This document shows, one piece after another, positions 1,607 through 54,516 of a stretch of 55,577 nucleotides of DNA (the stretch's first letter is position 1; each line of letters starts with the position of its first letter). The DNA is taken from assembly GCA_029226955.1 (NCBI GenBank), contig JAQXZA010000048.1, forward strand, positions 1 to 55,577, in the 5' to 3' direction. Under the pieces are notes generated by a model that saw only the letters and a list, made by a program, of their open reading frames with translations, did not search any database and was not told where the DNA came from. Origin of the DNA: Clostridia bacterium (GTDB taxonomy: Bacteria; Bacillota; Clostridia; Oscillospirales; Acutalibacteraceae). Both the position numbers and the translations under genes were made by a program.

Positions 1607-1641
1607 ATGCAGAATTAAGAATGCAGAGTGCAGAATTAAAG
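1607..1641. repeat. heptamer array, ATGCAGA/ATTAAGA type
   Basis: Five consecutive 7-bp units can be read: ATGCAGA, ATTAAGA, ATGCAGA, GTGCAGA, ATTAAAG. It lies 8 bases after the lipoprotein stop and ends 11 bases before the next start. It is a relaxed member of the heptamer repeats found throughout the window. Confidence 0.65.
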
Positions 1642-1652
1642 GGGTTTTTAAT

Positions 1653-1904
1653 ATGACGGAATATACATTCTTAGGAAAGTCAAACGGTGTTAAATTCTGT
1701 ATTGAGGGAATAGACGTTTTTCAGTACAAATGGTATGCACAAGGTAAATGTGATATTGTCCTTGAACCGCATACGAAAAAACCATATAGCTTTTCAGTTT
1801 ATGAGATTGACACAGGTAGTAAAAAGATAACATTCCTTGCCGGTAAATTTTCCGACGACAGTTGGGGCTTTTACCAGAAAAAAGGCGAAAACTTTATGTT
1901 TTGA
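1653..1904 (+). CDS. hypothetical protein, 83 aa
   Basis: Small soluble protein with no recognised motif. It is rich in aromatic residues and predicted beta strands (TEYTFLGKSNGVKFCIEG at the start, KGENFMF at the end). AAAGGGG lies at a good distance before the ATG, and the next gene begins 18 bases after the stop behind its own GGGGG, so this is likely a true member of a small operon. Function unknown. Confidence 0.7.
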   Translation: MTEYTFLGKSNGVKFCIEGIDVFQYKWYAQGKCDIVLEPHTKKPYSFSVYEIDTGSKKITFLAGKFSDDSWGFYQKKGENFMF

Positions 1905-1922
1905 TTATTTGGGGGTTAAACT

Positions 1923-2597
1923 ATGTACGACGAATTAAAAATTCAAAATCTTCTTGATATAACAAAAACTATTGCGTCAGAAATTTTTGACGGACTTACT
2001 TATCCTTGGGAGGCTTTGCCGAAAATTTCCGATTTTATTATTAAACTTGGTGCGACACTTCCGAAAGACGAATATGAACAGCGTGGCGAAAATATTTGGA
2101 TTGCCCGTTCAGCAAAGATTGCACCGACAGCGTATCTCAACGGGCCTCTTATTATATGCCCTAATGCTGAAATCCGTCATTGTGCGTTCATCAGGGGCAG
2201 TGCAATAGTCGGTGAGGGTGCAGTTGTCGGAAATTCAACCGAACTCAAAAACTGTATTATTTTCCAGAATGCACAAGTGCCGCATTATAACTATATAGGC
2301 GACTCGATTCTCGGATATAAGTCACATTTGGGTGCAGGTGCAATAACTTCTAATCTTAAATCCGACAAAAGCATTGTAACAATTCCGACTGCTGACGGAA
2401 AAATTGACACAGGACTAAAAAAATTCGGTGCAATAGTCGGCGATAATGTCGAGGTTGGTTGTAATTCGGTGCTTAATCCGGGTACAGTTATCGGCAGAAA
2501 TACAAATGTCTATCCGCTTTCAATGGTCAGAGGAACAATCCCGCAGAACAGCATTTACAAAAAACAAGGCGAAATAGTTGAAAAAATTTCAAAATAA
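1923..2597 (+). CDS. left-handed beta-helix (LbH) nucleotidyltransferase-like protein
   Basis: The 224-residue protein has a helical N-terminal ~50 residues, then hexapeptide-type repeats (for example IAPTAYLNGPLIICP, IRGSAIVGEGAVVGN, GAIVGDNVEVGCNSV, LNPGTVIGRNT) that form a left-handed beta helix. This is the pattern of the C-terminal domain of UDP-N-acetylglucosamine pyrophosphorylase-like proteins. The N-terminal nucleotidyltransferase (Rossmann) domain of GlmU is absent, so the protein may be a stand-alone acyltransferase-like or sugar-nucleotide-binding protein. HLGAGAITSNLK matches the acceptor-binding loop of the family. The start follows TTGGGGGTT. A terminator follows the stop. Confidence 0.8.
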   Translation: MYDELKIQNLLDITKTIASEIFDGLTYPWEALPKISDFIIKLGATLPKDEYEQRGENIWIARSAKIAPTAYLNGPLIICPNAEIRHCAFIRGSAIVGEGAVVGNSTELKNCIIFQNAQVPHYNYIGDSILGYKSHLGAGAITSNLKSDKSIVTIPTADGKIDTGLKKFGAIVGDNVEVGCNSVLNPGTVIGRNTNVYPLSMVRGTIPQNSIYKKQGEIVEKISK

Positions 2598-2603
2598 TAA
2601 TTT

Positions 2604-2657: not shown

Positions 2658-3155
2658 ATGGAAATATTTGATTTATACGATAAAAACAGAATACCGATAG
2701 GGGAAACCGTTGTGCGTGGCGGAAAATATCGTGTAGTAGTGCATATATGCGTTTTTAATTCAAAAAATGAAATGCTTATACAGCACCGTCAGCCGTTTAA
2801 ACACGGTTGGTCGGATTTGTGGGATATTACTGTCGGCGGTCATATAATCAGCGGCGAAACAAGCAGTCAGGGTGCTGAGCGTGAACTTCTTGAAGAAATC
2901 GGTCTTAATATCAGTCTTGACCGTCCGTCACTTACCGTAAATTTTACATCAGGCTTTGATGATATATATCTTGTTAAAGCAGATGTTGACATAAATACAC
3001 TTTCTTTGCAGTATGAGGAAGTCAAAGAGGTGAAATGGGCAACACTTGACGAAATAATTTCAATGATTGATGACAGCACTTTTATTCCTTACCACAAAAA
3101 TTATATCCGCCTTTTATTTGATATGAAAGACTATATGGGAGTACATAAAAAATAA
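2658..3155 (+). CDS. NUDIX hydrolase
   Basis: A complete NUDIX box is present: G, five residues, E, seven residues, RELLEEIG (about residues 62-83). This Mg-binding loop hydrolyses nucleoside diphosphates linked to another moiety. The start MEIFDLYDKNRIPIGETVVRG and the sequence VHICVFNSKNEMLIQHR place it in the IDI-like/YfcD-like group of NUDIX proteins; the substrate cannot be read from sequence. The start ATG follows ACGGAGAAAATT. The TAA stop (3153-3155) is also the first bases of a TAATTCGTAATGCG heptamer repeat. A second, related NUDIX protein lies at 48739-49260. Confidence 0.88.
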   Translation: MEIFDLYDKNRIPIGETVVRGGKYRVVVHICVFNSKNEMLIQHRQPFKHGWSDLWDITVGGHIISGETSSQGAERELLEEIGLNISLDRPSLTVNFTSGFDDIYLVKADVDINTLSLQYEEVKEVKWATLDEIISMIDDSTFIPYHKNYIRLLFDMKDYMGVHKK

Positions 3156-3172
3156 TTCGTAATGCGTAATTA
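3153..3172. repeat. short ATTACGM heptamer array
   Basis: TAATTCGTAATGCGTAATTA, two to three 7-bp units in the reverse orientation of the ATTACGM family, starting exactly at the stop codon of the NUDIX gene. Confidence 0.7.
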
Positions 3173-3240: not shown

Positions 3241-3241
3241 A

Positions 3242-3273
3242 GTTTGGAGTTTGGAGTGTGGAGAGTGGAGTTG
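3242..3273. repeat. GWGTGGA heptamer array
   Basis: Units TTGGAGT, TTGGAGT, GTGGAGA, GTGGAGT in tandem, just after the terminator. Confidence 0.8.
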
Positions 3274-3603: not shown

Positions 3604-3733
3604 AGAGTGGAGTGTGGAGAGTGGAGTGTGGAGTTGTGCAAACTGCAAAAGTTATCTTTACAAATAACTCAACTCCTCCTTTAAACTTGTGGTATGCACT
3701 AATTACGCATTACGCATTACGAATTACGCATTG
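3604..3733. repeat. composite heptamer element (GWGTGGA array - core - ATTACGM array)
   Basis: The left end (3604-3635) is four to five GWGTGGA-type heptamers. A core of about 65 bases containing TTTAAACTTGTGGT follows. The right end (3701-3733) is ATTACGC, ATTACGC, ATTACGA, ATTACGC in tandem. The same left-core-right order recurs at 41383-41523. Confidence 0.8.
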
Positions 3734-3747: not shown

Positions 3748-4425
3748 ATGATGTTCAGACTTGATGAAAGACTGGCACTTTGTGCGTCTTTTGTGAGAGA
3801 GGGTACTAAACTTGCCGACATAGGAACAGACCACGCTTATCTTCCTGTATGGCTTGCGAAAAACGGCAGAATAGTTTCAGCCGTTGCCGCAGACATAAGA
3901 CCAAAACCGCTTGAAAATGCAAAAGAAAATATCAGACGCTATAATGCCGAAAATATGGTATCAACCGTACTTTCCGACGGGCTTGACGAGATAGAACCGT
4001 CACAGGCACAGGATATTGTAATTGCAGGAATGGGCGGAGAACTTATCGCAAAAATTATAGACAGACCGCAGTGGCTTTACGACAGCAGCCGAAGACTTAT
4101 TCTTCAGCCTATGACACGTGCCGAGTCACTGCGTTTGTTTTTATGCGAAAAAGGCTTTAAGACGGAACAGGAAAAAGCGTGTATAAGCGGCGGAAAAACA
4201 TATTCCGTTATGGTGTGTTCTTATGATGGAAAAGTGAGAGAGTGCAGTAATGAATTTAAATATGCCGGATTGCTTTTGAATGACAATTCGATTGAGGCAA
4301 AACAATATATATATAATGTAAACGAAAAACTGAAAAAGAAAATAAACGCTTATGACGAAAATTCAACGGAAAGAGCGGAAATTGCGGCACTTATAGAAAA
4401 ATTTGAGAAAATTATAAATACTTAA
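3748..4425 (+). CDS. trmK: tRNA (adenine(22)-N1)-methyltransferase TrmK
   Basis: TrmK methylates N1 of A22 in the D-loop of bacterial tRNAs using S-adenosylmethionine. The SAM-binding motif I, LADIGTDHAYLPVWLA, lies at about residues 22-37; VAADIRPKPLENAKENI follows with the acidic residue for ribose binding; IVIAGMGGELIAKII is the family's MGGxLI signature. Length (225) is normal. Two ATG codons are adjacent (3748, 3751); either can serve GAGGGTGG upstream. The next gene, a Nif3-like protein, starts 13 bases later, which is the usual trmK-nif3 (yqfN-yqfO) pairing of Firmicutes and supports both calls. Confidence 0.93.
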   Translation: MMFRLDERLALCASFVREGTKLADIGTDHAYLPVWLAKNGRIVSAVAADIRPKPLENAKENIRRYNAENMVSTVLSDGLDEIEPSQAQDIVIAGMGGELIAKIIDRPQWLYDSSRRLILQPMTRAESLRLFLCEKGFKTEQEKACISGGKTYSVMVCSYDGKVRECSNEFKYAGLLLNDNSIEAKQYIYNVNEKLKKKINAYDENSTERAEIAALIEKFEKIINT

Positions 4426-7945: not shown

Positions 7946-7979
7946 TAATTACGCATTACGAATTACGAATTACGAATTG
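7946..7979. repeat. ATTACGM heptamer array
   Basis: ATTACGC, ATTACGA, ATTACGA, ATTACGA in tandem, directly before the ribosome-binding site of the next gene. Confidence 0.85.
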
Positions 7980-7999
7980 TTTAAGGGTTGGTGCTGATT

Positions 8000-9271
8000 T
8001 TGAAACAAAAGAGATGGTATCGTCTGGATAATGCCGCAAAGATATATCCGGCGGTACGGACTAAAAAATGGTCGGGAAATTTCAGAGTATCGGCAACGCT
8101 TACGGAAAAGGTTGACCCTGAAATTTTGCAACAGGCACTTGATGATGTCAGAAAAAGGATAGTAAATCTTAATCTTGAACTTAAAACAGGATTTTTCTGG
8201 TATTTTTTTGAAGAAACCGACAGGGAAGTATTGGTTGAACCCGACAGTCAGAACCCTTGCGGTCGTATCGGCGGAAAACATAATCGTGATATGCCGTACA
8301 GGGTGAGATATTATGACAGAAGAATTGTTGTTGAAGTTTTTCACACACTTGCTGATGGTACAGGCGGAATGATTTTTTTGAAATCAATCGTTGCACGGTA
8401 TCTTTTTTTGAAATACAGCGTAAAAATTCCGCCCGATGATGAAATTATATCCTGTGACAGTGAGTACGATACAGAAGAAATGGAGGACGCTTACAAGCGT
8501 TACGCAAAATTCCGCACAATGAAAAGCCGAAGTGAAACAAAAGGCTATCATTTCAAAGGAACGGCTTTGCCCGACGAACAGATAAGCGTTATTACAGGAA
8601 TTATTCCTGTTGATGATGTTCTGAAAAAATCGAGGGAATATGGTGTTACGCTGACGGAATTTATCGTTTCGGTTATGATTGAATCGTTTATGAAATGTCA
8701 GGCACAAAGCAAGTCGAAAATTGAACGTCCGATAAAAGTCAGTGTTCCGATAAATCTGAGAAAAATTTATCCGAGTAAAACTATGCGTAATTTTTCGCTT
8801 TATATAAACCCCGGTATTGAACCACGATATGGAGAGTTTACATTCAGGGAAATTACGGAAGAAGTACATCACTTTATGCGTATGAACAACAAGGAAAAAT
8901 ATCTTAATGCGATAATGTGCAAAAATTTAAGTGATGAAATAAATCCGTTTCTCAGAATTGTGCCGCTCGTGTTCAAAAATATCGCAATGGCTACGGCATT
9001 CAGAATGTACGGTGAAACATTGGTGTCGTCAACATTTTCTAATCTTGGTCTTGTGAAAGTGCCGCCCGAAATGGAAAAATATATTGAACGTTTTGAGTTT
9101 ATGCTTGGACGTTTTATGGCGGGAATGCCGAGTGCGGCGGCGGCAAGTTTCAAAGGAAAACTGTACATCAACTGGACAAGCGGCATAAAAGAAAAAGACG
9201 TTGAACGAAACTTTTTCACCTCGCTTGTAAAGTCGGGTATTCACGTTAAAATCGAAAGCAATATGTGCTAA
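8000..9271 (+). CDS. condensation-domain / alcohol acetyltransferase-like protein
   Basis: The protein belongs to the CoA-dependent acyltransferase superfamily: it carries the HxxxDG active-site motif as HTLADG (His115-Gly120), the N-terminal YRLDNAAKIYPAV segment common in the clostridial alcohol-acetyltransferase-like group, and a second half with VSVPINLRKIYPSKT and the DFGWG-region equivalent degenerate. It probably transfers an acyl group, but neither donor nor acceptor can be read. The start is uncertain: TTG at 8000 has the best context (AAGGGTTGGTG upstream) and gives MKQKRWYRLD; TTG 7988 and GTG 7991 are alternatives. Length about 423 residues. DUF6320 follows 12 bases later. Confidence 0.8.
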   Translation: MKQKRWYRLDNAAKIYPAVRTKKWSGNFRVSATLTEKVDPEILQQALDDVRKRIVNLNLELKTGFFWYFFEETDREVLVEPDSQNPCGRIGGKHNRDMPYRVRYYDRRIVVEVFHTLADGTGGMIFLKSIVARYLFLKYSVKIPPDDEIISCDSEYDTEEMEDAYKRYAKFRTMKSRSETKGYHFKGTALPDEQISVITGIIPVDDVLKKSREYGVTLTEFIVSVMIESFMKCQAQSKSKIERPIKVSVPINLRKIYPSKTMRNFSLYINPGIEPRYGEFTFREITEEVHHFMRMNNKEKYLNAIMCKNLSDEINPFLRIVPLVFKNIAMATAFRMYGETLVSSTFSNLGLVKVPPEMEKYIERFEFMLGRFMAGMPSAAAASFKGKLYINWTSGIKEKDVERNFFTSLVKSGIHVKIESNMC

Positions 9272-9283
9272 GGGGGAACAGTG

Positions 9284-9994
9284 ATGTCATACTGTGTAAA
9301 CTGTGGTGTTGAACTCGAAAAAACTCAGAAACGCTGTCCGTTGTGCAACACACCTGTGATAAATCCGAATGAAACGGAAATTACAACTGAAATTCCGCCT
9401 TATCCTACTGACAATGTTGTAGTGGTTGAGCGGAAATTAAGACGAATGACTGCACTGCTTATAACAATAATACTGTTTGTACCGTTTTTATTGTGTCCGC
9501 TTTGTGATTTTCTTATTACAGGCAGACTTACGTGGTCGGTATATACAATGCTGTCAATAGAACTTGGCTGGATATACATTGTGCCGCCTATTCTGTTAAA
9601 ACACAACACTGTAATGAAATGTGCGTGGATAGATTATTTTTCAACCATAATATTTTTATACGGCATAAATATGATATTTGCCCCCGAAAATAACTGGGCA
9701 TTAGAAATAGCTTTTCCGATTTTATCATATCTTATGGCTGTTGTGCTGATTTATGCGGTTCTTGCACGGCGGTTCAATATCAGCGTGCTTGTATATATTG
9801 CAACAGGATTTGTATTTGTTGCGGTTATGAGTCTGCTTATTGAATACATCATCAACTCGTATAACAACATAAGCGGCGGTTTTGTATGGGCAGTTCCAGT
9901 TATGATTTCGTGCCTTGGCGTTGCCTTAATTCTGATTGTAATTTCAAAAATGACCAAACTGAAAGCCCTCATCAAAAAAATAATGCACATTTGA
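9284..9994 (+). CDS. DUF6320 zinc-ribbon membrane protein
   Basis: The N-terminus is a zinc ribbon with two CxxC knuckles (CVNC and CPLC). After a ~35-residue linker come about six hydrophobic segments that span the membrane, ending KALIKKIMHI. This is the DUF6320 layout, a family often found beside acetyltransferase-like proteins of the type encoded just upstream. An in-frame ATG lies one codon earlier (9281); the second ATG at 9284 has the better spacing from AAGGGGGAAC. Role unknown; it may anchor or regulate the neighbouring acyltransferase. Confidence 0.82.
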   Translation: MSYCVNCGVELEKTQKRCPLCNTPVINPNETEITTEIPPYPTDNVVVVERKLRRMTALLITIILFVPFLLCPLCDFLITGRLTWSVYTMLSIELGWIYIVPPILLKHNTVMKCAWIDYFSTIIFLYGINMIFAPENNWALEIAFPILSYLMAVVLIYAVLARRFNISVLVYIATGFVFVAVMSLLIEYIINSYNNISGGFVWAVPVMISCLGVALILIVISKMTKLKALIKKIMHI

Positions 9995-10359
9995 ATCAGA
10001 GTGGAGAGTGGAGTGTGGAGAGTGGAGTTGTTATGAGTGCAGAGTGCAGAATGTAAAATGCGAGTCAGGAATTTGCACAACAAGGTTGCCTTTATCAATA
10101 ACTAAATTCAGCGGAAAACAGTAGTGGTCACAATAACTACACACTCCACTCTCCACACTCCACTCTGTTATGTAAAGTTTGGGTGTGGTTTTTGTGTTTT
10201 GTGTGTAAAAAAACCAAAAAAAAATTTAACTATTAAGCTATTTTGTCGTTTTGACAGAAAAACATAAATTTCTTTAAAAGAATTTTGAAACGGTGACAAT
10301 GTAATATCATTAAAATGTACGGGTTAAAATAGAAAAAGAAAATATCAGGAGGATTTTTT
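9995..10359. repeat. 365-base intergenic region with paired heptamer arrays (9999-10168)
   Basis: A GWGTGGA array lies at 9999-10030, followed by a relaxed GAGTGCA array (10034-10061). The inverted copy, ACTCCAC units at 10139-10168, closes the element. The core next to the right array contains GTGGTCACAATAACTAC, whose reverse complement matches the border of the repeats at 40874 and 21376. The remainder (10169-10359) is A/T-rich leader sequence with possible promoter pieces (TTGACA at 10251-10256) but no open frame that I would call. Confidence 0.75.
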
Positions 10360-12033
10360 ATGTCCCTCGATCAGACTACGGTTTCAAATATTCTTCTTGC
10401 AATGGGCGGTTTGGGACTTTTCCTTTACGGAATGAAGCTTATGGGCGACGGACTTGAACTTGCCGCTGGTTCAAGGCTTCGCAAAATGCTTGAAAAGCTG
10501 ACCACAAACCGTTATCTCGGTGCATTGGTAGGTCTTGTTGTTACAGGTATTATTCAGAGTTCAACGGCAGTATCTGTAATGGTTGTCGGTTTTGTTAATG
10601 CCGAAATTATGACATTAAGTCAGGCAATAGGCGTTATTATGGGTGCAAATATCGGTACAACCGTTACCAGTATTTTGCTTTCGTTCAAAATTTCGACCTA
10701 TGCTCCGATTGCAATTTTCATAGGAGCGTTTATGGTTGTTCTTTGCAAGAAAAATAATCATAAATATGTAGGACAGATTATTGCCGGTTTCGGAATACTT
10801 TTCTTTGGTATGTCAACAATGAGCGGTGGACTTGAACCGCTTGCAGATTCTCCGTTCTTCAAGAATATACTGACTTCCGTAAGTAATCCGTTTATAGGTA
10901 TTCTTGTCGGTGTTATCTTTGCCGCAGCAATCCAGAGTTCGTCAGCGTCGGTAGGTGTCTTACAGGCACTCGGTGCAGTAGGTGCATTATCACTGCCTAA
11001 TGCTGTTTACATTATTTACGGTCTTAATATCGGTGCTTGTTCAACAGCGGTAATTTCATCTATCGGTGCAACAAAAGCCGCAAGACGAACAGCAATGGCA
11101 CACGTTATTTTTAACACACTCGGTACGATGCTGTTCACAATTATTACACTTTTAACACCGTTCATATCCTGGGTTCAGCAGTGTACGGACTATGTACCGC
11201 TGCAAATATCCATTGTGCATATTGTGTTCAATGTTCTTTGTACGGTTTTGTTCCTGCCTATGAGCAATCTTCTTACAAAGCTTGCGTGTATTATCATTCC
11301 CGGCGAGGACAAAACAAAGGAGGCATGCCGTCTGAAATATATAGATTCAAGACTTTTGCAGACGCCGCCTATTGCAGTTGCTCAGGTTACAAAAGAAATT
11401 GAGCGTATGGGAAATCTTGCAAAGAAAAATTTTGCAATGTCTATGGAATCACTGTTGAAAAAAGACTCAGCTCTTATTGAAGAAGTAGAAGAAAATGAAG
11501 AAGTAATAGATTATCTTAATCAGGAAATTACAACCTATCTTGTAAAAATCAACGGACTTAATCTTGAAGACTCAGACCGTGTTATGATAGGTTCGTACTA
11601 TCACGTTGTAAGCGATATGGAACGTATCGGCGACCACTGTGAGAATATATGTGAGCTTGCCGCAATGGAAATTGCAAAAGGTGAATCATTCAGCAAAACC
11701 GCTTTGAATGAAATTGCAGAAATGCAGAAACTTGTTTCATCAATTATCGAAAATTCTCTCTTTATGTTCTCAACACGCAATTATGACAAAAAAATGATAA
11801 AGGTTGTCAGCAATACCGAACAGGAAATTGACAACTGTACAAGCCTTTACAAAGAAAACCATATTGAACGTCTGAGTAACGGCGAATGTGACGCAACAGT
11901 CGGCACTCTGTTTATGGAATTGCTCACTAACCTTGAAAGAATTGCCGACCATAGTACAAATATTGCTTTCTCAATGTACCCGAACCAAAAAGTTCCCGAA
12001 AAAGCACAACTTCCGGAAAACACTAATGCTTAA
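10360..12033 (+). CDS. Na/Pi cotransporter family protein
   Basis: This is the NptA/YjbB-type sodium-phosphate symporter. The two inverted Na_Pi_cotrans repeats are visible, each with the QSS motif (QSSTAVSVMV at about residue 66 and QSSSASVGVL near 190). About eight to nine membrane segments fill residues 10-310. The C-terminal ~220 residues are a PhoU-like helical domain with MIGSYYHVVSDMERIGDHCENI, which can bind metal clusters and may control transport. It should import phosphate with sodium or export excess phosphate. CAGGAGGATTTTTT precedes the ATG. It appears to be a single-gene unit. Confidence 0.93.
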   Translation: MSLDQTTVSNILLAMGGLGLFLYGMKLMGDGLELAAGSRLRKMLEKLTTNRYLGALVGLVVTGIIQSSTAVSVMVVGFVNAEIMTLSQAIGVIMGANIGTTVTSILLSFKISTYAPIAIFIGAFMVVLCKKNNHKYVGQIIAGFGILFFGMSTMSGGLEPLADSPFFKNILTSVSNPFIGILVGVIFAAAIQSSSASVGVLQALGAVGALSLPNAVYIIYGLNIGACSTAVISSIGATKAARRTAMAHVIFNTLGTMLFTIITLLTPFISWVQQCTDYVPLQISIVHIVFNVLCTVLFLPMSNLLTKLACIIIPGEDKTKEACRLKYIDSRLLQTPPIAVAQVTKEIERMGNLAKKNFAMSMESLLKKDSALIEEVEENEEVIDYLNQEITTYLVKINGLNLEDSDRVMIGSYYHVVSDMERIGDHCENICELAAMEIAKGESFSKTALNEIAEMQKLVSSIIENSLFMFSTRNYDKKMIKVVSNTEQEIDNCTSLYKENHIERLSNGECDATVGTLFMELLTNLERIADHSTNIAFSMYPNQKVPEKAQLPENTNA

Positions 12034-12035
12034 TC

Positions 12036-12138
12036 AGTGTGGAGAGTGGAGTGTGGAGAGTGGAGTTGTGTTCAAAACTATTGCTATTTGTGGTATGTTT
12101 CCGCACATTAAATAATTATTCACTATTCATCATTCATT
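12036..12138. repeat. composite heptamer element (GWGTGGA array - core - ATTCATY array)
   Basis: Starting 2 bases after the transporter stop, GWGTGGA units fill 12036-12067. The core holds TTTGTGGTATGTTTCCGCACA, comparable to cores at 3604 and 7900. A third kind of heptamer array, ATTCACT, ATTCATC, ATTCATT, follows at 12118-12138. Confidence 0.75.
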
Positions 12139-12151
12139 AGTAAAAATTTTA

Positions 12152-12186
12152 ATGCCCGTGACCAAAAAAGTCACGGGTATTTTTTC
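12152..12186. terminator. rho-independent terminator
   Basis: Perfect 10-bp stem ATGCCCGTGA / TCACGGGTAT with an A-rich loop and T6 tail on the + strand; the complementary strand also has a T-rich flank. It can end both the transporter transcript and the reverse-strand gene at 12283-12621. Confidence 0.9.
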
Positions 12187-12258
12187 TGTCAGGGTTTCAC
12201 ACGGAAAATTTACCTTTATCAATAACTCTGTTCATCGAAAGCAGCAACAATCATAATA

Positions 12259-12289
12259 ACTCCACACTCCACTCTCAACACTTCACACT
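12259..12289. repeat. inverted GWGTGGA heptamer array
   Basis: ACTCCAC, ACTCCAC, TCTCAAC, ACTTCAC units. It is inverted relative to the array at 12036 and overlaps the 3' end of the reverse-strand gene, providing its last codons and TGA stop (12283-12285). Confidence 0.75.
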
Positions 12290-12621
12290 GATAAAAAGTA
12301 TTCTTTGAGTTCGTCAGCGGTTTTTATGCTTATGAACGGATATTTTTCGCAAAGGTAACGGCAGATTTGTTTTGACTCGTCATTCATTCCACAGTCAAGG
12401 CATATTATCTGTTGGTTTTTGCTGAGATTAAGCCAGCGTGTCTTTGCGATTGCACTACGTACAAGAAATTCGGTTTGATTGCTGTCTTTGCCTATCGGAA
12501 CAATAATGGCAGAATTGTTTATTTTCGGCGAAAAAAGAGCAAGTGACAAAAATTTATAAAAATCAATTATTCCGAATATCGCAAACGAAACAACAGCTAT
12601 TCCGCATACAGTATAAAGCAT
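12283..12621 (-). CDS. hypothetical membrane-anchored protein, 112 aa
   Basis: One or two hydrophobic segments at residues 1-33 (LYTVCGIAVVSFAIFGIID and KFLSLALFS) are followed by a soluble domain with NSAIIVPIGKDSNQTEFLVRSA and NQQIICLDCGMNDESKQICRYL, reminiscent of a small Rossmann-type fold, likely cytosolic. AGGGGCG lies upstream of the ATG on the reverse strand, supporting translation. The final residues LSV and the stop codon lie in a heptamer repeat, so the original C-terminus may have been altered. I do not recognise the family. Confidence 0.65.
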   Translation of the reverse strand: MLYTVCGIAVVSFAIFGIIDFYKFLSLALFSPKINNSAIIVPIGKDSNQTEFLVRSAIAKTRWLNLSKNQQIICLDCGMNDESKQICRYLCEKYPFISIKTADELKEYFLSV

Positions 12622-12707: not shown

Positions 12708-12734
12708 TAACTCCACACTCCACTCTCCACACTG
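12708..12734. repeat. inverted GWGTGGA heptamer array
   Basis: ACTCCAC, ACTCCAC, TCTCCAC, ACT units, between the divergent hypothetical gene and spoIIE. Confidence 0.75.
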
Positions 12735-19711: not shown

Positions 19712-19845
19712 CTGGATTTTAAAGAAAATATACAATTTTTTACTCAAAAAAATTGAAAAGTTATATAATATATGTTAAAATAATTAAACAGAGGAAAATA
19801 TATTATGTGACTTTTTTAATTCTATCAGATGAGGGTGAAGTATAT

Positions 19846-21378
19846 ATGTTGGTTGTAACAAGTGATGAAATGAGAAATATCGAAAAAAAGGCTGTTGAAA
19901 ACGGCAGTACATACCTTGGACTTATGGAAAAAGCCGGAGGTTTTATTGCTGAAAAGGCGGCAAAGATTATTACCGCAAAAAAACTGAAAAATATTGTAAT
20001 TCTTTGCGGAAAAGGCAATAATGGCGGTGATGGTTTTGTTGCGGCAAGATTTCTTTCGGTGATGTGTGATGTTACTGTTATTCTTGCCGACGGAGAACCG
20101 AAAACAAATGACGCAAAAATGAATTTTAATCTTATGCCGCACAATATAAAAACAATTTCGTATATTGCTGAAAAAGAAGAATGTATCAACAGCATTAACA
20201 ACGCTGAAATACTCATTGACGCAATATACGGCATAGGCTTTAAAGACGCATTAAATCCTGAAATTTACGAACTTTCGGAATATTATAACGAAAACAAAAA
20301 AGCCGTGAAAATTTCTGTTGACTTGCCGAGCGGAATTATGTGCGACACGGGAGAAATAATAAACGGCTGTTTTAACGCTGATTATACCGTTACATTTACT
20401 GCACTTAAACCACTGCATATTTTGTATCCGTCAATGGATTTTTGCGGAGAAGTTTCCGTTGAAAATGTCGGTGTGCCAAAACAAATACTTGACGAATGTT
20501 CATATATTATGAAAACAACCGACGAATATATCTGTGAAAATCCATTAACAAAACGCAGAAAATCCGCCCATAAAGGTACTAACGGAACACTTTTTTCATT
20601 ATGCGGCAGTTACGGAATGGCGGGTGCGGCGGTGCTTTCGGGCAGTGCGGCACTCAGAACAGGAGTAGGACTTTTGCGTATGGCTGTTCCGAAATCAATA
20701 TATGAACTTGTTTCGTCAAAGCTGACAGAGGCAGTATTTATGCCGCTTAAACAGAATGACGACGGCACAGTCAGCATAGAGGAATTTAATAAAATCCTTT
20801 ATGATGTACTTGAAAAATCAAGTGCAATGCTTATCGGCTGTGGTCTTGGAATGAATGACGAGCTGAATGACTTGGTTTCACTGCTTATCGAAAACTCAAC
20901 AAAGCCTATTGTTCTTGACGCTGACGGCATAAATGCGGTTTGTATGAATATAAATGTATTGAAAAGGGCAACAGTTCCTCTTATTCTCACGCCACACCCC
21001 GGCGAAATGGCAAGACTTACAATGTCTGATACAAGAACCGTACAGTGTGACCGCTATAATATTGCAAAAAACTTTGCCGAAGAATACGGTGTAACCCTTG
21101 TGCTGAAAGGTGCAAACACTCTTGTTGCAACCCCTGACGGAAATGTATATGTAAATCTCACAGGCAACAACGGAATGGCAAAAGGCGGCAGTGGTGATGT
21201 TCTTGCCGGAATGATTGCGTCATTTCTTGCACAGGGAATGAGTGCCGAAAAAGCCGCCGTTTACGGTGTATATTATCACGGACTTGTCGGAGATTTATGT
21301 TCCGAAAAATACTCCTCACGTTCAATGCTCCCCTCAGATATGGTCACAGAACTTAAATCAGTATGGAGGAATTTATAA
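19846..21378 (+). CDS. nnr: bifunctional NAD(P)H-hydrate epimerase / ADP-dependent dehydratase
   Basis: Nnr repairs damaged NAD(P)HX. The N-terminal YjeF_N epimerase domain (about residues 1-215) has GKGNNGGDGFVAAR and DAIYGIGF. The C-terminal ribokinase-like dehydratase domain (about 225-510) has KGTNGTLFSLCGSYGMAGAA, ILTPHPGEMARL and NGMAKGGSGDVLAGMIAS, the nucleotide- and substrate-binding loops. Length 510 is normal. The start is ATG 19846, 5 bases after GAGGGTGAAG; an upstream in-frame ATG lacks a ribosome-binding site. A MITE-like repeat begins at the stop codon. Confidence 0.95.
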   Translation: MLVVTSDEMRNIEKKAVENGSTYLGLMEKAGGFIAEKAAKIITAKKLKNIVILCGKGNNGGDGFVAARFLSVMCDVTVILADGEPKTNDAKMNFNLMPHNIKTISYIAEKEECINSINNAEILIDAIYGIGFKDALNPEIYELSEYYNENKKAVKISVDLPSGIMCDTGEIINGCFNADYTVTFTALKPLHILYPSMDFCGEVSVENVGVPKQILDECSYIMKTTDEYICENPLTKRRKSAHKGTNGTLFSLCGSYGMAGAAVLSGSAALRTGVGLLRMAVPKSIYELVSSKLTEAVFMPLKQNDDGTVSIEEFNKILYDVLEKSSAMLIGCGLGMNDELNDLVSLLIENSTKPIVLDADGINAVCMNINVLKRATVPLILTPHPGEMARLTMSDTRTVQCDRYNIAKNFAEEYGVTLVLKGANTLVATPDGNVYVNLTGNNGMAKGGSGDVLAGMIASFLAQGMSAEKAAVYGVYYHGLVGDLCSEKYSSRSMLPSDMVTELKSVWRNL

Positions 21379-21616
21379 TGCGTAATGCGTAATTCGTAAT
21401 GCGTAATTGTTGTGACCGCCACTATATTTGACAAATTCAGTTAATGATAAAGATAACTTTTTTGAAACATTACCTCTGTTCTGATGAACATTATCCCCAA
21501 AAAATAACTTTTCGTACAAATTCTGCATAGAAGTTTTGGTTATAATAAAACTTAAAATCAAAGCGTAAACTTGTGGTTCACACTAATTACGCATTACGCA
21601 TTACGAATTACGAATT
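21376..21616. repeat. MITE-like element with heptamer terminal inverted repeats
   Basis: The left end is TAATGCG/TAATTCG units (21376-21408) and the right end is the inverse, ATTACGC/ATTACGA units (21584-21616). The inverted similarity extends beyond the heptamers: TTGTGACC inside the left end matches GTGTGAACC in the reverse complement of the right end. The ~175-base core has no coding frame I would call. It lies between nnr and a lipoprotein gene. Confidence 0.75.
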
Positions 21617-21634: not shown

Positions 21635-22138
21635 GTGAAAAGGCTGTGTGTAATTGTTCTGAGTTTGGCGGTAGTTTTTGTTATGTGTTCGTGTTCGGTA
21701 GCGGAAAAAATACCCGAAGTAATAACAGGTATCGACAAAAACGCAAGCGTGGAATATGACGGAATGAATTATCAGTGTCACATAACACGGCTTACTGACG
21801 GAGTAGTGTCTGTCGGGGTAAATTCGCCCGAAAATCTGTCGGGACTTATGTTTCGTCAGGCTGACGGTAAGTTTTCAGTTTCGTGCGATAACCTTATATG
21901 CAAAACCGACAGCGTGACATTACCTGAAACATCATTTCCTTTTATGATAATAAAAATTCTCTCATCAGCCTCAGTAAAAGAAAATCTGTTGTATTGTTCG
22001 TCAGAAAACGGCAGTTTTAAATTTACGGGCAACAGTGATACGGGTGCATATCAGCTTTTTACCGACAAAGAGGGAAATATTACAAAAATTTGTGACGATA
22101 ACACAGGCTTGAAAGTCAATTTTGAAAAGAATAAATAA
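21635..22138 (+). CDS. putative lipoprotein, 167 aa
   Basis: A type II signal peptide ends in MCSC (Cys20). The mature part has ASVEYDGMNYQCHITRLTDGVVSVGV and SPENLSGLMFRQADGKFSVSC, which resembles the curved beta-sheet fold of LolA-like lipoproteins; this is inference from pattern. The start is GTG at 21635 with GGTGGTG 6 bases upstream. The ribosome-binding site lies just after the repeat element. A terminator follows the stop. Function unknown. Confidence 0.78.
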   Translation: MKRLCVIVLSLAVVFVMCSCSVAEKIPEVITGIDKNASVEYDGMNYQCHITRLTDGVVSVGVNSPENLSGLMFRQADGKFSVSCDNLICKTDSVTLPETSFPFMIIKILSSASVKENLLYCSSENGSFKFTGNSDTGAYQLFTDKEGNITKICDDNTGLKVNFEKNK

Positions 22139-26429: not shown

Positions 26430-26436
26430 GTGTTTC

Positions 26437-34210: not shown

Positions 34211-34240
34211 ACTGCATTTTTCTTTGAAGGAAAATGCAGT
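34211..34240 (+). promoter_or_regulatory. hairpin in the MATE gene leader
   Basis: ACTGCATTTT / AAAATGCAGT, a perfect 10-bp stem with a 10-base loop, lies 34 bases before the MATE start. There is no T run after it, so it is not a plain terminator. The region 33990-34210 has no other feature I can support. Confidence 0.4.
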
Positions 34241-34274
34241 TTGTTGTGAAGAAAATCACGAAAGGAATGATAAA

Positions 34275-35659: not shown

Positions 35660-35702
35660 GTCCACACTAACTCCACACTCCACACTCCACTCTCCACACT
35701 CT
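35660..35702. repeat. inverted GWGTGGA heptamer array
   Basis: ACTCCAC, ACTCCAC, ACTCCAC, TCTCCAC, ACT units (with a TCCACACTA start), immediately after the MATE gene stop. Confidence 0.8.
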
Positions 35703-39372: not shown

Positions 39373-39436
39373 TTTTTCTATAAATTTCTTGCAAAATTCT
39401 TATAAACAGAGTAGAATAAAATCAGGAGGTGTTTAT

Positions 39437-40873
39437 ATGCTTGAAACCGAATTATTAAAGCTGATTGAAGATATACGCATAAAAAAAGCAGAAAGCAACT
39501 ATATTGAGGTCAAATCCGCAAAAAACGGCTGTCCGAAAATTTTTGATACACTGTCATCATTTTCAAATCAACAAAATGGCGGAATTATAATTTTTGGTGT
39601 TGATGAAAATGATGATTATAATATATGCGGAGTTTATAATGCTGCTGATTTACAGAAAAAAATAATGGAACAGAGTATGCAGATGGAACCTGTTGTACGT
39701 CCGCTTTGTACGGTTGCGGTAATTGACGGTAAAACCGTTGTAAGTGCTGAAATTCAGGAAACAGATAACTTTCAGAAACCTTGTTTTTATAAGGGTGCGG
39801 GCAGACTCAGGGGTTCTTATGTTCGTGTTGCGGACGGCGACAGACTTATGACTGAATATGAAGTTTACAGCTATGAGGCGTTTAAAAAGGATATACACGA
39901 TGAACTCAGGACTAATGAACGCTCAGAACTGAATGATATAAACACTGATGAATACCAGTTGTATCTTATTCAATTAAGAAAAAGCAAACCGCACCTTGCA
40001 ACGCTTAAAGAAACGGAAATCAATCGTTTACAGGGGGTTGTTATTGAAAATAAGCCTACTATTGCGGCACTTATGCTTTTTTCTGTTTATCCACAGGCTT
40101 ATTTTCCGCAACTTTGTATTACTGCTGTTTCCGTACCGGGTAAAGAAAAAAGTTCAGTCGGAAGTGTAGGAGAAAGATTTATTGACAACAGAAGAATTGA
40201 AGGCTCTATAACTCAAATGCTTAACGATACTTTAATTTTTATCAGAAAAAATATGAAAGTAAAAACAATAATAGACCAAAATACAGGTATGAGAAAAGAC
40301 AAAACGGAATATCCTGTTATTGCCGTAAGAGAACTTGTGCTTAATGCACTTGTTCACCGTGATTACAGTATTCACACAGAGTCAGCACCAATTACTGTTA
40401 CTATGTATTCCGACAGAATGGAAATTGAAAATCCCGGAGGACTGTACGGCAGAATGACGCTTGATAATTTAGGCTATGTTTCAGCCGATACCCGAAATCC
40501 GTATATTGCAAATGCACTTGAAGTTATGGGAGAAACCGAAAACCGTTACAGCGGTATTCCGACAATAAGAAGTGCTATGAAAAATGCAAAACTTCCGCCG
40601 CCCGTTTTTGAAAATAACAGGGGAGTATTCAAAGCAATACTTTACAATGAAAATTCACTCACAAAAGACAAAACAGACATTAAAAGTCAGATTCTTGATT
40701 TTTGCACCGTTCCTAAAAGCCGTGGTGAGCTTGAAGAAAAATTCAAAGACAATATAACAATAGCATACCTTATGAATAAATATATGAAACCTCTTATATC
40801 CGAAAACAAAATTGCTCTTACCAAACCAGAATCTCCCAAAAGCAAAGACCAGCAATATTACACAGTATCATAA
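39437..40873 (+). CDS. AlbA_2/Schlafen-domain ATP-binding protein (RecG C-terminal-like)
   Basis: The N-terminal AlbA_2 (Schlafen-like nucleic-acid-binding) domain has YIEVKSAKNGCPKIFDTLSSFSNQQNGGIIIFGVDE. The C-terminal half is an HATPase_c_4 domain with VIAVRELVLNALVHRDYS and EIENPGGLYGRMTLDNL, and a final winged-helix-like part (QILDFCTVPKSRGELEEKF). Such proteins are frequent in accessory regions and are treated as transcriptional regulators or defence-related factors; neither is proven. The start is ATG 39437, 6 bases after AGGAGGTG. The phased boxes upstream may be its own binding sites. 478 residues. Confidence 0.9.
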   Translation: MLETELLKLIEDIRIKKAESNYIEVKSAKNGCPKIFDTLSSFSNQQNGGIIIFGVDENDDYNICGVYNAADLQKKIMEQSMQMEPVVRPLCTVAVIDGKTVVSAEIQETDNFQKPCFYKGAGRLRGSYVRVADGDRLMTEYEVYSYEAFKKDIHDELRTNERSELNDINTDEYQLYLIQLRKSKPHLATLKETEINRLQGVVIENKPTIAALMLFSVYPQAYFPQLCITAVSVPGKEKSSVGSVGERFIDNRRIEGSITQMLNDTLIFIRKNMKVKTIIDQNTGMRKDKTEYPVIAVRELVLNALVHRDYSIHTESAPITVTMYSDRMEIENPGGLYGRMTLDNLGYVSADTRNPYIANALEVMGETENRYSGIPTIRSAMKNAKLPPPVFENNRGVFKAILYNENSLTKDKTDIKSQILDFCTVPKSRGELEEKFKDNITIAYLMNKYMKPLISENKIALTKPESPKSKDQQYYTVS

Positions 40874-40907
40874 TAATGCGTAATTCGTAATGCGTAATGC
40901 GTAATTA
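40874..40907. repeat. ATTACGM heptamer array
   Basis: TAATGCG, TAATTCG, TAATGCG, TAATGCG, TAATT in tandem one base after the stop codon, followed by the conserved border TTGTGACCGCTA. From 40915 to 41078 I see only A/T-rich leader of the SASP gene. Confidence 0.88.
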
Positions 40908-41078: not shown

Positions 41079-41273
41079 ATGTCAAACAACTCAAACTCAA
41101 TCAACGTACCTGAGGCAAGACAGGCTATGGAACAGTTCAAGATGGAATGTGCCAACGAAGTAGGCGTAAATCTCAAACAGGGCTATAACGGTGATATTAC
41201 TGCCCGTCAGGCCGGTTCTGTCGGTGGACAGATGGTCAAGAAAATGATTGAGGCTTACGAAAGAAATATGTAA
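41079..41273 (+). CDS. alpha/beta-type small acid-soluble spore protein (SASP)
   Basis: SASPs coat and protect spore DNA and are degraded by the GPR protease at germination. This 64-residue protein has the family layout: NVPEARQAMEQFKMECANEVG with the GPR cleavage region (EVG), then the DNA-binding helix pair with GDITARQAGSVGGQMVKKMIE. AAAAGGAGAAATTTATT precedes the ATG. Expected to be made in the forespore under sigma-G; I could not identify a confident sigma-G promoter by eye. Confidence 0.96.
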   Translation: MSNNSNSINVPEARQAMEQFKMECANEVGVNLKQGYNGDITARQAGSVGGQMVKKMIEAYERNM

Positions 41274-41303
41274 TCCGTTTCAGATAATATGACGGATTTT
41301 CTC
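41272..41303 (+). terminator. weak terminator after SASP
   Basis: AATCCGT (41272-41278) / ACGGATT (41292-41298) followed by TTCTC; short stem. A further GC-rich hairpin with T7 ends near 41380. Confidence 0.55.
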
Positions 41304-41382: not shown

Positions 41383-41523
41383 AGAGTGGAGTGTGGAGTG
41401 TGGAGAGTGGAGAGTGGAGTTAGAAATGAGGAATTATTTATGTTGCGGAAAATAACTTCAAATCAGCCGTTAAACTTATGGTAAACACTAATTACGCATT
41501 ACGCATTACGAATTACGCATTAT
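41383..41523. repeat. composite heptamer element (GWGTGGA array - core - ATTACGM array)
   Basis: GWGTGGA units at 41383-41421, a core with TTAAACTTATGGT, and ATTACGC/ATTACGA units at 41489-41523. Same order and orientation as 3604-3733. It overlaps the 3' end of the reverse-strand Crp/Fnr gene and supplies its last codons and stop. Confidence 0.82.
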
Positions 41524-42141
41524 TATGACTTTTGTGCTTTTGGAGGAGATTAGTTTTTCGTCGTTCATTTTTTTTAGTTCACGCATCATTGCACTTCTGT
41601 CAACAGCAAGATAATCGGCAAGGTCAGACAGCGGCAAGGGCAGTATAATAGTTTTGCTGTCGCTTTGTGCGGATATAAATTCAAAATACATAAGCAATTT
41701 GTTTCTTATTTTTCGCTGGGAAAGAATATTTATATGTAAACGGTATTTTGAAGATGTTGAAAAAATAATGTTATTTATAAATTTTAGGTGATTTTGACAA
41801 TTTTTTTTGCACTGTGATATGACTGAGTCGTATCTGAAAAATTTTACTGTACAATTTTTTTTTGCAAGAAGATAGTATAAATTTTCATTGGTATCAGGCG
41901 AAAATCTGTTTCCGAATATGTTTCCGGGTTCATAATATTCTATGATGCTTTTTTCTCCGTCGGTATTAACACTCATAAGATATGCCAGTCCGTCGTACAT
42001 TATACCGACGTTTTCTGACATTGATGTGAAACGCATTATTATGTCACCTTTTTTATATTTTTTCTCTCCGGAATTAAGACAAGCAAGCGTATCACTTATT
42101 TCCTTTTCAGTCATATCACAAAAAACTGAATATTTATTCAT
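41506..42141 (-). CDS. Crp/Fnr family transcriptional regulator
   Basis: A cyclic-nucleotide-binding-like beta-roll (KKGDIIMRFTSMSENVGIMYDG then EYYEPGNIFGN) is followed by a long helix and a winged HTH with LPLSDLADYLAVDRSAMMRELKKM. The 211 residues match the family. There is no clear Fnr-type N-terminal Cys cluster, so the effector is unknown. The start is the ATG at 42141 after GGAGGGCATAAA; a 32-residue upstream extension covers promoter sequence. The final codons MRNS-stop come from a heptamer repeat. It is divergent from nrdDG and likely controls it and itself. Confidence 0.9.
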   Translation of the reverse strand: MNKYSVFCDMTEKEISDTLACLNSGEKKYKKGDIIMRFTSMSENVGIMYDGLAYLMSVNTDGEKSIIEYYEPGNIFGNRFSPDTNENLYYLLAKKNCTVKFFRYDSVISQCKKNCQNHLKFINNIIFSTSSKYRLHINILSQRKIRNKLLMYFEFISAQSDSKTIILPLPLSDLADYLAVDRSAMMRELKKMNDEKLISSKSTKVIIMRNS

Positions 42142-42197
42142 TTTATGCCCTCCTATATAATGTAGAATATTTTTGTGCAAAACGCTATATATTGTAT

Positions 42198-42225
42198 TGT
42201 AACATATATATGTTGCAAATGCAAC
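42198..42225. promoter_or_regulatory. overlapping palindromes (Crp/Fnr-like operators)
   Basis: TGTAACATATATATGTTGCA (42198-42217) is a 20-base palindrome with one mismatch pair, similar in form to Crp/Fnr sites. GTTGCAAATGCAAC (42212-42225) is a perfect palindrome overlapping it. They lie 57 bases upstream of the regulator start. Confidence 0.65.
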
Positions 42226-42283
42226 AGACAAATTCATTGTTTTAAGCTAAAATGTATATCGTACTTCAAAATTCGGATTTACC

Positions 42284-52559: not shown

Positions 52560-52813
52560 CAATTCTTTATAGAACCTCCGTATAACCTTAAAAATTTTCA
52601 ATAAAACAATAATATGCACACATAACTTAAAATAACGGTATTACGGGTGTATTTTTGCACAATCATAATACTGAAAATTATAAAATCTTTAAAAAGTTTA
52701 AGGAAGAGTTAATAATTTATTATCACATAAACTTAAATAATGGGTTATAATAAAATCATCAAAGGAAAACAAATTAAATCAAGCAAATAAAAATAAATTC
52801 GGAGGTCTTAAAA

Positions 52814-54385
52814 ATGGACGAAAACAACTTCAATAACGAACAGAACAGAACTAATGGTACTTATGAAAACACACCGGCTGATTATAATGACGGATATAAC
52901 GATATTTCATCAAATTCATCTGAAACCGATACTCATCAGCCTGAAAACATTTATTCGTCAAGTCAGCCGCAACAGCCGTCACAGGCAATCAACACACAGC
53001 CTGTACATTACAGTTCAACTCAGGAAACCCAGACTATAAATCTTCCGCAGTACAATGCCGCAAATCAGCAGAATTACACAGTTCCGCAGTATCATAACGC
53101 AAATCCGCAGTATAATTCAGTAAACCAACAGCCGCCGAAAAAATCAAAAAACGGCAAAAAGGTTGCACTAATTGTCGGTGCATTGGCACTCACGCTTTGT
53201 GTAGGTTTAGGCGGAGGCTTGCTCGGTGCATATCTTCTCGGTAATAACGGCGGTGTTTCCGTTGCGACTAATACTTCAAATCCCGAAAATTCCAAAACGG
53301 AAAACAGCAATTCAGGACTTACCATTATTCAGGCAAGCGACGACGAGGTTAAACCTACAACAACACAGGAGGTTGCCGAAAAAACTCTTGATTCAGTCGT
53401 TGAAATTACAACCGAATCTACCGAATACGACAGCTTTTACGGACAGTATGTTGCAAAGGGTGCCGGCAGCGGTGTAATTATTTCGGCTGACGGCTACATT
53501 ATCACAAATAACCACGTAGTTGAGGGTGCAACAAGCGTAAAAGTCAGACTTACAAACGAAAAAAGCTATGACGCTAAGGTTATCGGCACAGACTCAACAC
53601 TTGATGTTGCACTTATCAAAATAGAGGAAACCAATCTTAAACCGGCAACTTTTGGTGACTCGTCAAAACTTAAAGTCGGTCAGACTGCAATAGCAATAGG
53701 CAATCCTCTCGGCAAGCTCGGCGGAACTGTTACAGACGGTATTATCAGTGCTTTGGACAGAGAAATTGAACTTGACGGCAAAACTATGACGCTTTTACAG
53801 ACTAATGCCGCAATCAATCCGGGCAACTCGGGCGGCGGACTCTTTGACTCAAACGGCAATCTTATAGGTATCGTTGTTGCAAAATCCACAAGTTCATCAA
53901 ACGGTACATCTGTTGAAGGTCTTGGCTTTGCAATTCCTGTAAATAACATAACAGATATTCTTGATGACCTCAGAACAAGCGGATATGTAACAGGTCGTCC
54001 GACTCTTGGTGTTACACTCGTTGACGTAGATACAGAACAAAAGCAGTTTATGTACAGGGTTGACAAACTCGGTGCTTATGTTTCATCTCTTGTAAGCGGC
54101 GGTGCTGCCGAAAAAGCTGGCATTAAGGTGGGCGACTGCATAACAAAAATCGGCGACAAAGAAGTTTCAACTTCATCAGAAATAAAAGCTGAGCTTACAA
54201 AACATAAAGCAGGCGAAAAGATAAAAATAACCGTTGACCGTGACGGCAAAGAAAAAATCTTCGATGTAACTCTTGGTGAAAGCATTCCCGAAGAAAGCAG
54301 TACAGAGGAAAGCAGCAGTTATTTCGGAAATGACCCTGACGACATTTTCAGATATTATTTCGGTAACGGCGGTTCACTCGGCTGA
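52814..54385 (+). CDS. HtrA-like serine protease (S1C) with PDZ domain
   Basis: A long Asn/Gln-rich cytosolic N-terminus (residues 1-~112) precedes one membrane helix (~116-140). The trypsin-like domain outside has the triad His in IITNNHVVEG, Asp in TLDVALIKI and Ser in AINPGNSGGGLFD. A PDZ domain (~410-500) includes GAAEKAGIKVGDCITKIG and ends before a Ser/Glu-rich tail. HtrA degrades or refolds damaged envelope proteins. CGGAGGTCTTAAA precedes the ATG. The 254 bases upstream (52560-52813) hold a possible TATAAT at 52746-52751 and no other feature. Confidence 0.95.
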   Translation: MDENNFNNEQNRTNGTYENTPADYNDGYNDISSNSSETDTHQPENIYSSSQPQQPSQAINTQPVHYSSTQETQTINLPQYNAANQQNYTVPQYHNANPQYNSVNQQPPKKSKNGKKVALIVGALALTLCVGLGGGLLGAYLLGNNGGVSVATNTSNPENSKTENSNSGLTIIQASDDEVKPTTTQEVAEKTLDSVVEITTESTEYDSFYGQYVAKGAGSGVIISADGYIITNNHVVEGATSVKVRLTNEKSYDAKVIGTDSTLDVALIKIEETNLKPATFGDSSKLKVGQTAIAIGNPLGKLGGTVTDGIISALDREIELDGKTMTLLQTNAAINPGNSGGGLFDSNGNLIGIVVAKSTSSSNGTSVEGLGFAIPVNNITDILDDLRTSGYVTGRPTLGVTLVDVDTEQKQFMYRVDKLGAYVSSLVSGGAAEKAGIKVGDCITKIGDKEVSTSSEIKAELTKHKAGEKIKITVDRDGKEKIFDVTLGESIPEESSTEESSSYFGNDPDDIFRYYFGNGGSLG

Positions 54386-54435
54386 TTTTTAACAAGCGTA
54401 TTCCTTACTTCTTTTCATAATTTTTTTCTCCTCAG

Positions 54436-54483
54436 AAACTGGCTGTCATTTTCACTATACGAAAACGGCAGCTGGTTTTTTTT
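54436..54483 (+). terminator. terminator of htrA-like gene
   Basis: AAACTGGCTG / CAGCTGGTTT stem (with two G-T pairs), extended by TTTTC/GAAAA, followed by T8. Confidence 0.8.
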
Positions 54484-54516
54484 AATTCGTAATTCGTAAT
54501 TCGTAATGCGTAATTA
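54483..54516. repeat. ATTACGM heptamer array
   Basis: TAATTCG, TAATTCG, TAATTCG, TAATGCG, TAATT in tandem with border TATTGTTCGG; it directly follows the terminator and abuts the region of the IS element. Confidence 0.88.

Follow-up and report, generated by a model that had tools for sequence, protein, structure and literature searches.

Tandem heptamer arrays in a clostridial genome as candidate ends of short interspersed elements at gene 3' ends

Why should a single clostridial contig carry, between its genes, short tandem arrays that keep a strict 7-bp period while the repeated unit changes from site to site? We addressed this question in a 55,577-nucleotide stretch of DNA from a Clostridia bacterium of the Acutalibacteraceae (GenBank assembly GCA_029226955.1, contig JAQXZA010000048.1), hereafter the window, which is the entire contig C48 of a draft genome of 2.60 Mb in 150 contigs. 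The arrays are dispersed in many near-identical copies, face inward when paired and prefer stop codons. Our answer, to which we attach a probability of roughly 0.55, is that they form the ends of short interspersed elements that are non-autonomous and comparable to miniature inverted-repeat transposable elements (MITEs) or repetitive extragenic palindromic sequences (REPs), set at gene 3' ends.

A sample of the genome, 445 kb made up of the window and 20 more stretches, contained 64 strict period-7 arrays, compared to none at periods 4, 5, 8, 10 and 13 and to 3, 2, 2, 10 and 7 arrays at periods 6, 9, 11, 12 and 15, respectively, while Markov-shuffled sequence gave none at any period from 4 to 15. 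Array density in this sample is biased upward because 19 of the 20 stretches come from contigs with listed array matches. Genome-wide, GTGGAGNGTGGAGNGTGGAG produced 175 overlapping matches (101 + 74) against 0 for its reversed-pattern control, and three consecutive ATTACGM units produced 174 (91 + 83) against 4. A preliminary description of the window had proposed several heptamer families with one architecture, to be tested by an excess of period 7 over random sequence and by a spread beyond the window; both tests came out in its favor, and the architecture proved independent of the unit. Tandem Repeats Finder returned period-7 rows at the quoted sites (1606, 3153, 3241, 3604/3607, 3702, 7947, 9998, 10035, 10136, 12036/12039, 12259, 12710, 21376, 21585, 35670, which had been quoted as 35660, 40874, 41383/41386, 41491 and 54483). 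The row at 3153 is weak (2.7 copies), an ATTCATY site at 12118 can be read in the sequence but has no row at score 30, and not every site is strictly intergenic, as 3241 was flagged within a called open reading frame (ORF) by our crude caller.

Looser scan settings gave sets of 85 and 82 arrays, the latter of which was used for length and flank statistics. These 82 comprise 41 arrays of GTGGAG type, 27 of CGTAAT type and 14 others, with units that include AATTAGG, AGAGTGC, AATTCAT, AAAATTG and AATCAGG. Array length is 31-32 bp in 44 of the 82, and 14 of the 41 GTGGAG-type arrays have one of two sequences, which are alike in the order T, A, T of their later variants and unlike at a single position. 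Fixed columns inside arrays are mostly 80-100% conserved and most columns past the array ends about 30-65%, a few columns being exceptions, for example one at 0.89 in the CGTAAT type. The 31-32 bp length peak and the recurring order of variant units indicate that these are not free microsatellites. Because arrays within one type are copies of each other, descent by dispersal is partly involved, which qualifies the earlier proposal of a common copying mechanism in place of descent from one sequence; such a mechanism across the heptamer types is possible. It is also doubtful that the types are unrelated, as nearly all units, read in phase, fit A-R-W-K-N-N-N and vary in the same columns. Since the phase was chosen by a rule favoring this form, the common format is only suggestive of a relationship among unit types. 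The units are contiguous direct heptamers, neither parted by unique spacers as in clustered regularly interspaced short palindromic repeats nor palindromic as in REPs and REP doublets forming hairpins (REPINs).

We took the strand reading A-R-W-K-N-N-N as the forward strand of each array, a rule under which one array (L107 8477) is probably mis-stranded, and called genes as the longest non-overlapping ORFs, so that some neighbors are wrong, such as that of the array at 7948. For 57 arrays the outer neighbor is a stop codon, which 20 arrays overlap and 22 follow at 0-5 nt, with none at 6-21 nt and 15 farther away (P ~5e-19 overall and ~7e-12 within 0-21 nt for uniform placement in array-free gaps, arrays being treated as independent). 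No inner-side stop codon lies nearer than 15 nt (49 arrays). Arrays occur at 31 per 55 convergent, 42 per 294 codirectional and 3 per 52 divergent intergenic regions, and their density is 4.45/kb between convergent versus 0.31/kb between divergent genes. In CGTAAT-type arrays the stop codon is often part of the array itself, and 17 of the 32 GTGGAG-type arrays with an outer stop begin 1-5 nt past it, usually following A/T letters and a C (letters read by eye); a few GTGGAG arrays, again by eye, follow a terminator-like T-tract instead of a stop. Random insertion into short operon gaps predicts arrays 6-21 nt from stops, where there are none, and was rejected as a full account; it is part of the story, and an 11-bp gap was seen in the relative G025.

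Sharp stop adjacency and sense orientation would also suit functional elements of the 3' untranslated region (3' UTR), which, however they arose, selection would keep past stop codons to protect mRNA 3' ends or to cause pausing or termination, and most of the similar heptamer arrays in Xanthomonas are transcribed (PMC4692102). We consider this explanation unlikely. In codirectional gaps 19 of 43 arrays face the downstream start, antisense to it. At the gathering thresholds of Rfam the window returned only three tRNAs, which rejects a known RNA family for the arrays. Neither of two simple functions is universal across units. Fail-safe stop codons were rejected as the common function, as AGTGTGG, AGAGTGG, AATGTGC, AATGCAG and AATGTTC have no stop codon on the sense strand. 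A G-quadruplex cannot be the common cause because several unit types lack GG (9 of the 13 units listed), and the GTGGAG type holds two-G tracts only.

Another way to obtain the period would be for the heptamers to serve as adjoining sites on which a DNA-binding protein oligomerizes. The omega repressor of pSM19035 binds contiguous 7-bp sites, and a period of 7 with a length of ~31 bp (near three helical turns, by arithmetic) would suit a helical protein array. In Geobacter metallireducens, four-heptamer elements are annotated as putative global regulatory elements (PMC2700814). However, at least six unit types that differ in their last three bases occur in one genome, so that a single sequence-specific protein could hardly read all arrays, and we regard this explanation as highly improbable.

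Pairs of neighboring arrays less than 300 bp apart have a strong polarity: 17 are '+-', facing inward, and none '-+', with 5 '++' and 2 '--'. Some inner flanks contain a degenerate core (TTRTTGTGACCG..AGTT-TTGATAAA-like). An iterated model of this core, at 10 bits, matched 23 of the 82 inner flanks and none of the 82 outer or 410 shuffled flanks; 16 of the 82 scored inner flanks had seeded the model, and only about 7 matches were gained beyond the seed, one of which (L107 8352) is due to reading into the core of its neighbor. Some arrays are stacked, directly adjoining one another (L107 8352/8383 and L106 14608/14647). Such layering, together with a constant period and a changing unit, is what a telomerase-like reverse transcriptase writing heptamers from a template might leave behind. 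The recurring order of variant units instead suggests copying of whole arrays, not reiteration of one short template, and neither G000 (listed as 100% complete) nor G022 matches the reverse transcriptase domain RVT_1 (PF00078). We hold templated writing to be extremely improbable.

We compared sites among relatives, of which G011, G022 and G004 are mutually close, with ~78-92% identity over shared stretches. Abundance is lineage-specific: among 60 genomes searched, GTGGAG triples occur in 11 (own included), all within the genus, and ATTACGM triples in our own genome only, and the AATTAGC pattern AATTAGCAATTAGCAAT has 86 matches in G011, 23 in G022, 7 in G004 and 0 in G025 and G028. We queried 13 GTGGAG sites, of which 2 had no two-flank match and 3 gave alignments too short to score, and 13 of 20 AATTAGC sites fetched from G011 (7 being omitted by no fixed rule), of which 11 could be scored in one or more relatives and 2 had no two-flank match. 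At the 16 sites scorable in G004, classed by eye, that genome has the same or a variant unit at 4 (L158, L159, L166 and L118), a different unit at 5 (L154, L165, L116, L121 and L122) and no array at 7 (L157, L162, L163, L164, L117, L125 and L127). The TAA at L163, for example, precedes AATTAGC units in G011 and AATTGAA-type units in G022, and G004 has no array there. The pairs at L116 and L122 have another unit type at either end in G004. G004 lacks all of the 140-bp pair plus core at L117, G022 likewise lacks the complete pair and core at L118, and at L127 a single array is absent from G004. The G011 array at L164 lies ahead of the native stop and introduces a new one, and the L125 array is common to G011 and the more distant G010 and absent from G004. 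By eye, the stop codon of one ORF in G022 lies within an array, which is missing at the corresponding ORFs of G004 and G025, and at another G022 array site G025 has an 11-bp stop-start gap and G004 a different hairpin-like insert. Presence and absence thus vary between close relatives, and units turn over while period and place stay constant, with different units beside the same stop codon.

These comparisons bear on two of the alternatives. Selection for a 3' UTR function would account for six orthologous GTGGAG arrays in which 2 of 184 array positions differ, versus 61 of 538 flank positions, although retrieval of these loci by an exact 20-mer biases the comparison toward conservation. AATTAGC-type arrays, which were chosen in one genome only, vary freely and differ strongly between relatives at the same site at L159 and L166; the high proportion of G004 sites with no array or another unit, in sets chosen in G011 only, likewise argues against selective maintenance. 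Slippage, in which each array grew in place by polymerase slippage favored at period 7, is an idea that stems from an earlier survey of simple sequence repeats, as reported in PMC4679880 and PMC4692102; in that survey most genomes had heptanucleotides as their commonest class (PMC4679880). Copy number does differ at orthologous sites, with ~4.5 versus 7 units at L162, and at L121 G004 has a ~15-unit run of a different type. Slippage is nonetheless very unlikely as the origin of the arrays, as many sites share one ~31-bp sequence down to its variant order, slippage does not predict the polarity, the inward pairing or the closeness to stops, and a pair with its core can be absent as a unit from relatives.

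Other gene 3' ends carry an array in 8 of 49 cases in G004 and 8 of 45 in G022, so that independent insertion at a favored place can explain different units at one site, and in-place conversion of units, while not needed, may occur as well. A G-rich hairpin-like insert lies just past the stop where a relative has a heptamer array, in G022 and G004 at the L164 site (L181, L176) and in G004 at L091, opposite L093 2211-2286; other repeats may therefore use the same target. In G011, the GGAG of the array at L125 ~1010-1045 may provide a ribosome-binding site, the candidate start being a GTG immediately past the array, for a gene that by eye resembles thiamine pyrophosphokinase.

An element of the kind we favor would consist, starting from a gene 3' end, of ~4 heptamers plus 3 nt (~31 bp), sometimes a degenerate core (TTRTTGTGACC...) and often an inverted second array. 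A trans-acting enzyme or a replication or repair process would copy such elements, insert them preferentially at gene 3' ends (at stop codons and in some cases terminator T-tracts) and fix their polarity, and the arrays might later change copy number and unit through slippage, conversion or re-insertion. As expected of MITEs, whole elements are present or absent, the pair and core missing together at L117 in G004 and at L118 in G022. The inward-facing arrays would correspond to terminal inverted repeats, but the two ends of most pairs differ in unit.

Several observations weigh against these being mobile elements, however. The unit differs between the two ends in 10 of the 17 inward pairs, 59 of the 82 inner flanks score below 10 bits with the core model, and arrays are much more uniform than the cores they adjoin, so that simple co-transposition fails to explain array uniformity. 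No target-site duplication was visible by eye at empty sites, where flanks are too diverged for exact junctions. The Y1 transposase (PF01797) matched over only 37 positions in G000 and had no match in G011, G022, G004 or G012, although it is present in G027, G017 and G018, and RVT_1, absent from G000 and G022 as noted above, has one match each in G011 and G004. These absences are not final in G011, G022 and G004 because those genomes are 82-91% complete. The searches do not supply an enzyme, and Y1 transposases of the REP-associated tyrosine transposase (RAYT) kind and RVT_1 were rejected as mobilizers; DDE transposases and tyrosine recombinases were not searched for. Stop adjacency, finally, is weak outside the genus (outer side 10 of 56, inner side 4 of 56, with 12 more in called ORFs) in loci from 13 genomes among the matches listed, where palindromic units make some match both strands. 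We rejected it as a rule for heptamer arrays generally (G312 does not follow it), and sharp stop placement is therefore a feature of this genus.

Array abundance is patchy, as 20 other species of the genus hold 2 strict period-7 arrays in 306 kb and 20 genomes from other families of the order hold 0 in 315 kb. Nor is this the only clostridial chromosome with heptamer arrays. A set of 80 named clostridial loci (965 kb) contained 6 period-7 arrays versus 1 each at periods 4, 5, 8, 10, 11 and 13, and a degenerate pattern of three ARTKNNR units followed by ARTK was present in 65 of the 299 genomes examined from the phylum, the present one among them. In a scattered minority these matches far exceed the reversed control (157 versus 1 in G334, 80 versus 0 in G268 and 141 versus 7 in G204), and in others they do not (120 versus 102 in G320 and 2 versus 76 in G255). 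Three Clostridium loci (L255, L259 and L261) have stop-overlapping arrays at what seems, by position and flank and judged by eye, to be the same gene end, with a unit in L255 that differs from that in L259 and L261. In a record of Hathewaya massiliensis (L266 9873-9980), ~15 heptamers run from a stop codon, and the unit drifts while the period stays 7. A broader conjecture, which we hold to be quite unlikely, is that a unit-agnostic activity across several phyla would recognize gene 3' ends and deposit ~4 heptamers (~31 bp) with fixed polarity, taking its unit from a changeable template or seed, such that lineages rewrite different heptamers at the same places.

Within the window, three inward pairs and a layered group with an inward-facing right end illustrate the layout. 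The first pair joins an AGAGTGG/AGTGTGG array (3604..3634, + strand), 1 nt past a stop codon, to an AATGCGT/AATTCGT array (3702..3732, -; ATTACGM on the + strand) that lies 15 nt before ORF 3748-4425. In the layered group, an AGAGTGG array (9998..10027, +) 3 nt past the stop of ORF 9281-9994 has an AGTGCAG/AATGCAG array just inside it (10035..10060, +). An AGAGTGG array (10136..10166, -) is a right end that faces inward, and its inner flank carries the shared core motif (TTRTTGTGACC...AGTTATTGATAAAG-like, 10076..10135, -) adjoining the array. In the second pair, a TAATGCG array (21376..21407, +), whose first TAA is the stop of ORF 19753-21378, adjoins a core at 21408..21464 (+) and pairs with an AATTCGT/AATGCGT array (21585..21616, -) 18 nt before ORF 21635-22138. 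The third pair consists of an AGAGTGG array that follows a T-tract (41383..41420, +) and an AATGCGT array (41491..41522, -) overlapping the 3' end of ORF 41506-42237 (-).

The remaining arrays are as follows. On the + strand, a mixed AATGCAG/AATTAAG array (1606..1636) lies 7 nt past the stop of ORF 1131-1598, a short TAATTCG/TAATGCG array (3153..3171) has as its first TAA the stop of the Nudix-like ORF 2658-3155, an AGTGTGG array (12036..12065) begins 2 nt past the stop of the Na/Pi cotransporter-like ORF 10360-12033, a TAATGCG array (40874..40905) stands directly past the stop of ORF 39389-40873, and a TAATTCG/TAATGCG array (54483..54515) follows a T-tract; an AGTTTGG/AGTGTGG array lies at 3241..3272. 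On the - strand are an AATTCGT-type array (7948..7978) 9 nt before ORF 7988-9271, the ATTCATY-type array read from sequence (12118..12141), a degenerate AGTGTGG array (12259..12289) overlapping the stop of ORF 12283-12621 (-), an AGTGTGG array (12710..12733) and another (35670..35701) that is a polarity exception, its inner side being 15 nt from the stop of ORF 34224-35654. By eye, a terminator-like hairpin (CCCGTGAC..GTCACGGG then T) recurs between inward-facing arrays (window ~12150-12190, L096, L097 and others), and a small ORF at ~41080-41274, between the arrays at 40874 and 41383, resembles an alpha/beta small acid-soluble spore protein. Other repeats in the window are a 12/24-bp tandem repeat (GAACCAAGCGAA, 23804-24013) within ORF 22226-24262, where it encodes a low-complexity protein segment, and a 41-bp tandem repeat of two to three copies between ORFs (26423-26531).

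Why heptamers dominate long-unit bacterial repeats is an open question in the literature compared, in which units of 4-11 nt are in general normally or weakly over-represented (PMC4060949). A genus with many units, comparable species, empty sites and unit change at the same site makes this question testable. As period, polarity and place outlast the sequence, explanations tied to one sequence, such as quadruplexes, fail-safe stops or one binding protein, are not general, and the arrays may provide a search image for a mobilizer that prefers gene 3' ends. Among the matches listed in the literature searched, which does not extend to subscription papers, we found no earlier description of heptamer repeats in this lineage.

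Among known systems, E. coli REPs lie close to stop codons. REPs, bacterial interspersed mosaic elements and REPINs, associated with RAYT transposases, form many short extragenic copies whose inverted doublets are the proposed mobile unit (PMC3116915); the arrays resemble them in copy number, extragenic position and inverted pairing, and differ in that their ends are heptamer arrays, not palindromes, and in that only a Y1 fragment was found in G000 and none in G011, G022 or G004. Four tandem heptamers as a dispersed unit are also seen in the GGGACCG elements of G. metallireducens, with 49 dispersed copies, some within genes (PMC2700814). TAACTGA direct repeats of marine Beggiatoaceae, cyanobacteria and Bacteroidetes share an intergenic, dispersed and strain-specific occurrence in two to six copies (PMC4679880), although they consist of one unit with related heptamers and in the main genome described lie mostly in sense upstream of start codons, whereas the arrays here are tied to stops. 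Tandem heptamers of several types in one genome are known from the short tandemly repeated repetitive sequences of cyanobacteria, with three types in Calothrix (as cited in PMC4692102). A close parallel is with the GGGAATC and GGGGA(C/T)T heptamers of Xanthomonas and Nostoc, which prefer 4 units, generally lack association with insertion sequences and occupy loci more stable than controls; in Xanthomonas they lie in sense near stop codons and antisense upstream of ORFs, are under-represented between divergent ORFs and form 70 and 75 convergent inverted pairs in two genomes, with few in Nostoc (PMC4692102). Our arrays share with the Xanthomonas and Nostoc heptamers the strict period and ~4 units, and with those of Xanthomonas the stop-adjacent sense and pre-ORF antisense placement, the rarity between divergent ORFs and the convergent pairs. 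Unlike the single G-rich unit per genome described there, which was read in terms of quadruplexes, they comprise many units, of which several contain no GG; their abundance depends on the lineage, and the unit at a given site can differ between close relatives. The geometry of the arrays is thus one already described for Xanthomonas, here built from other, multiple units.

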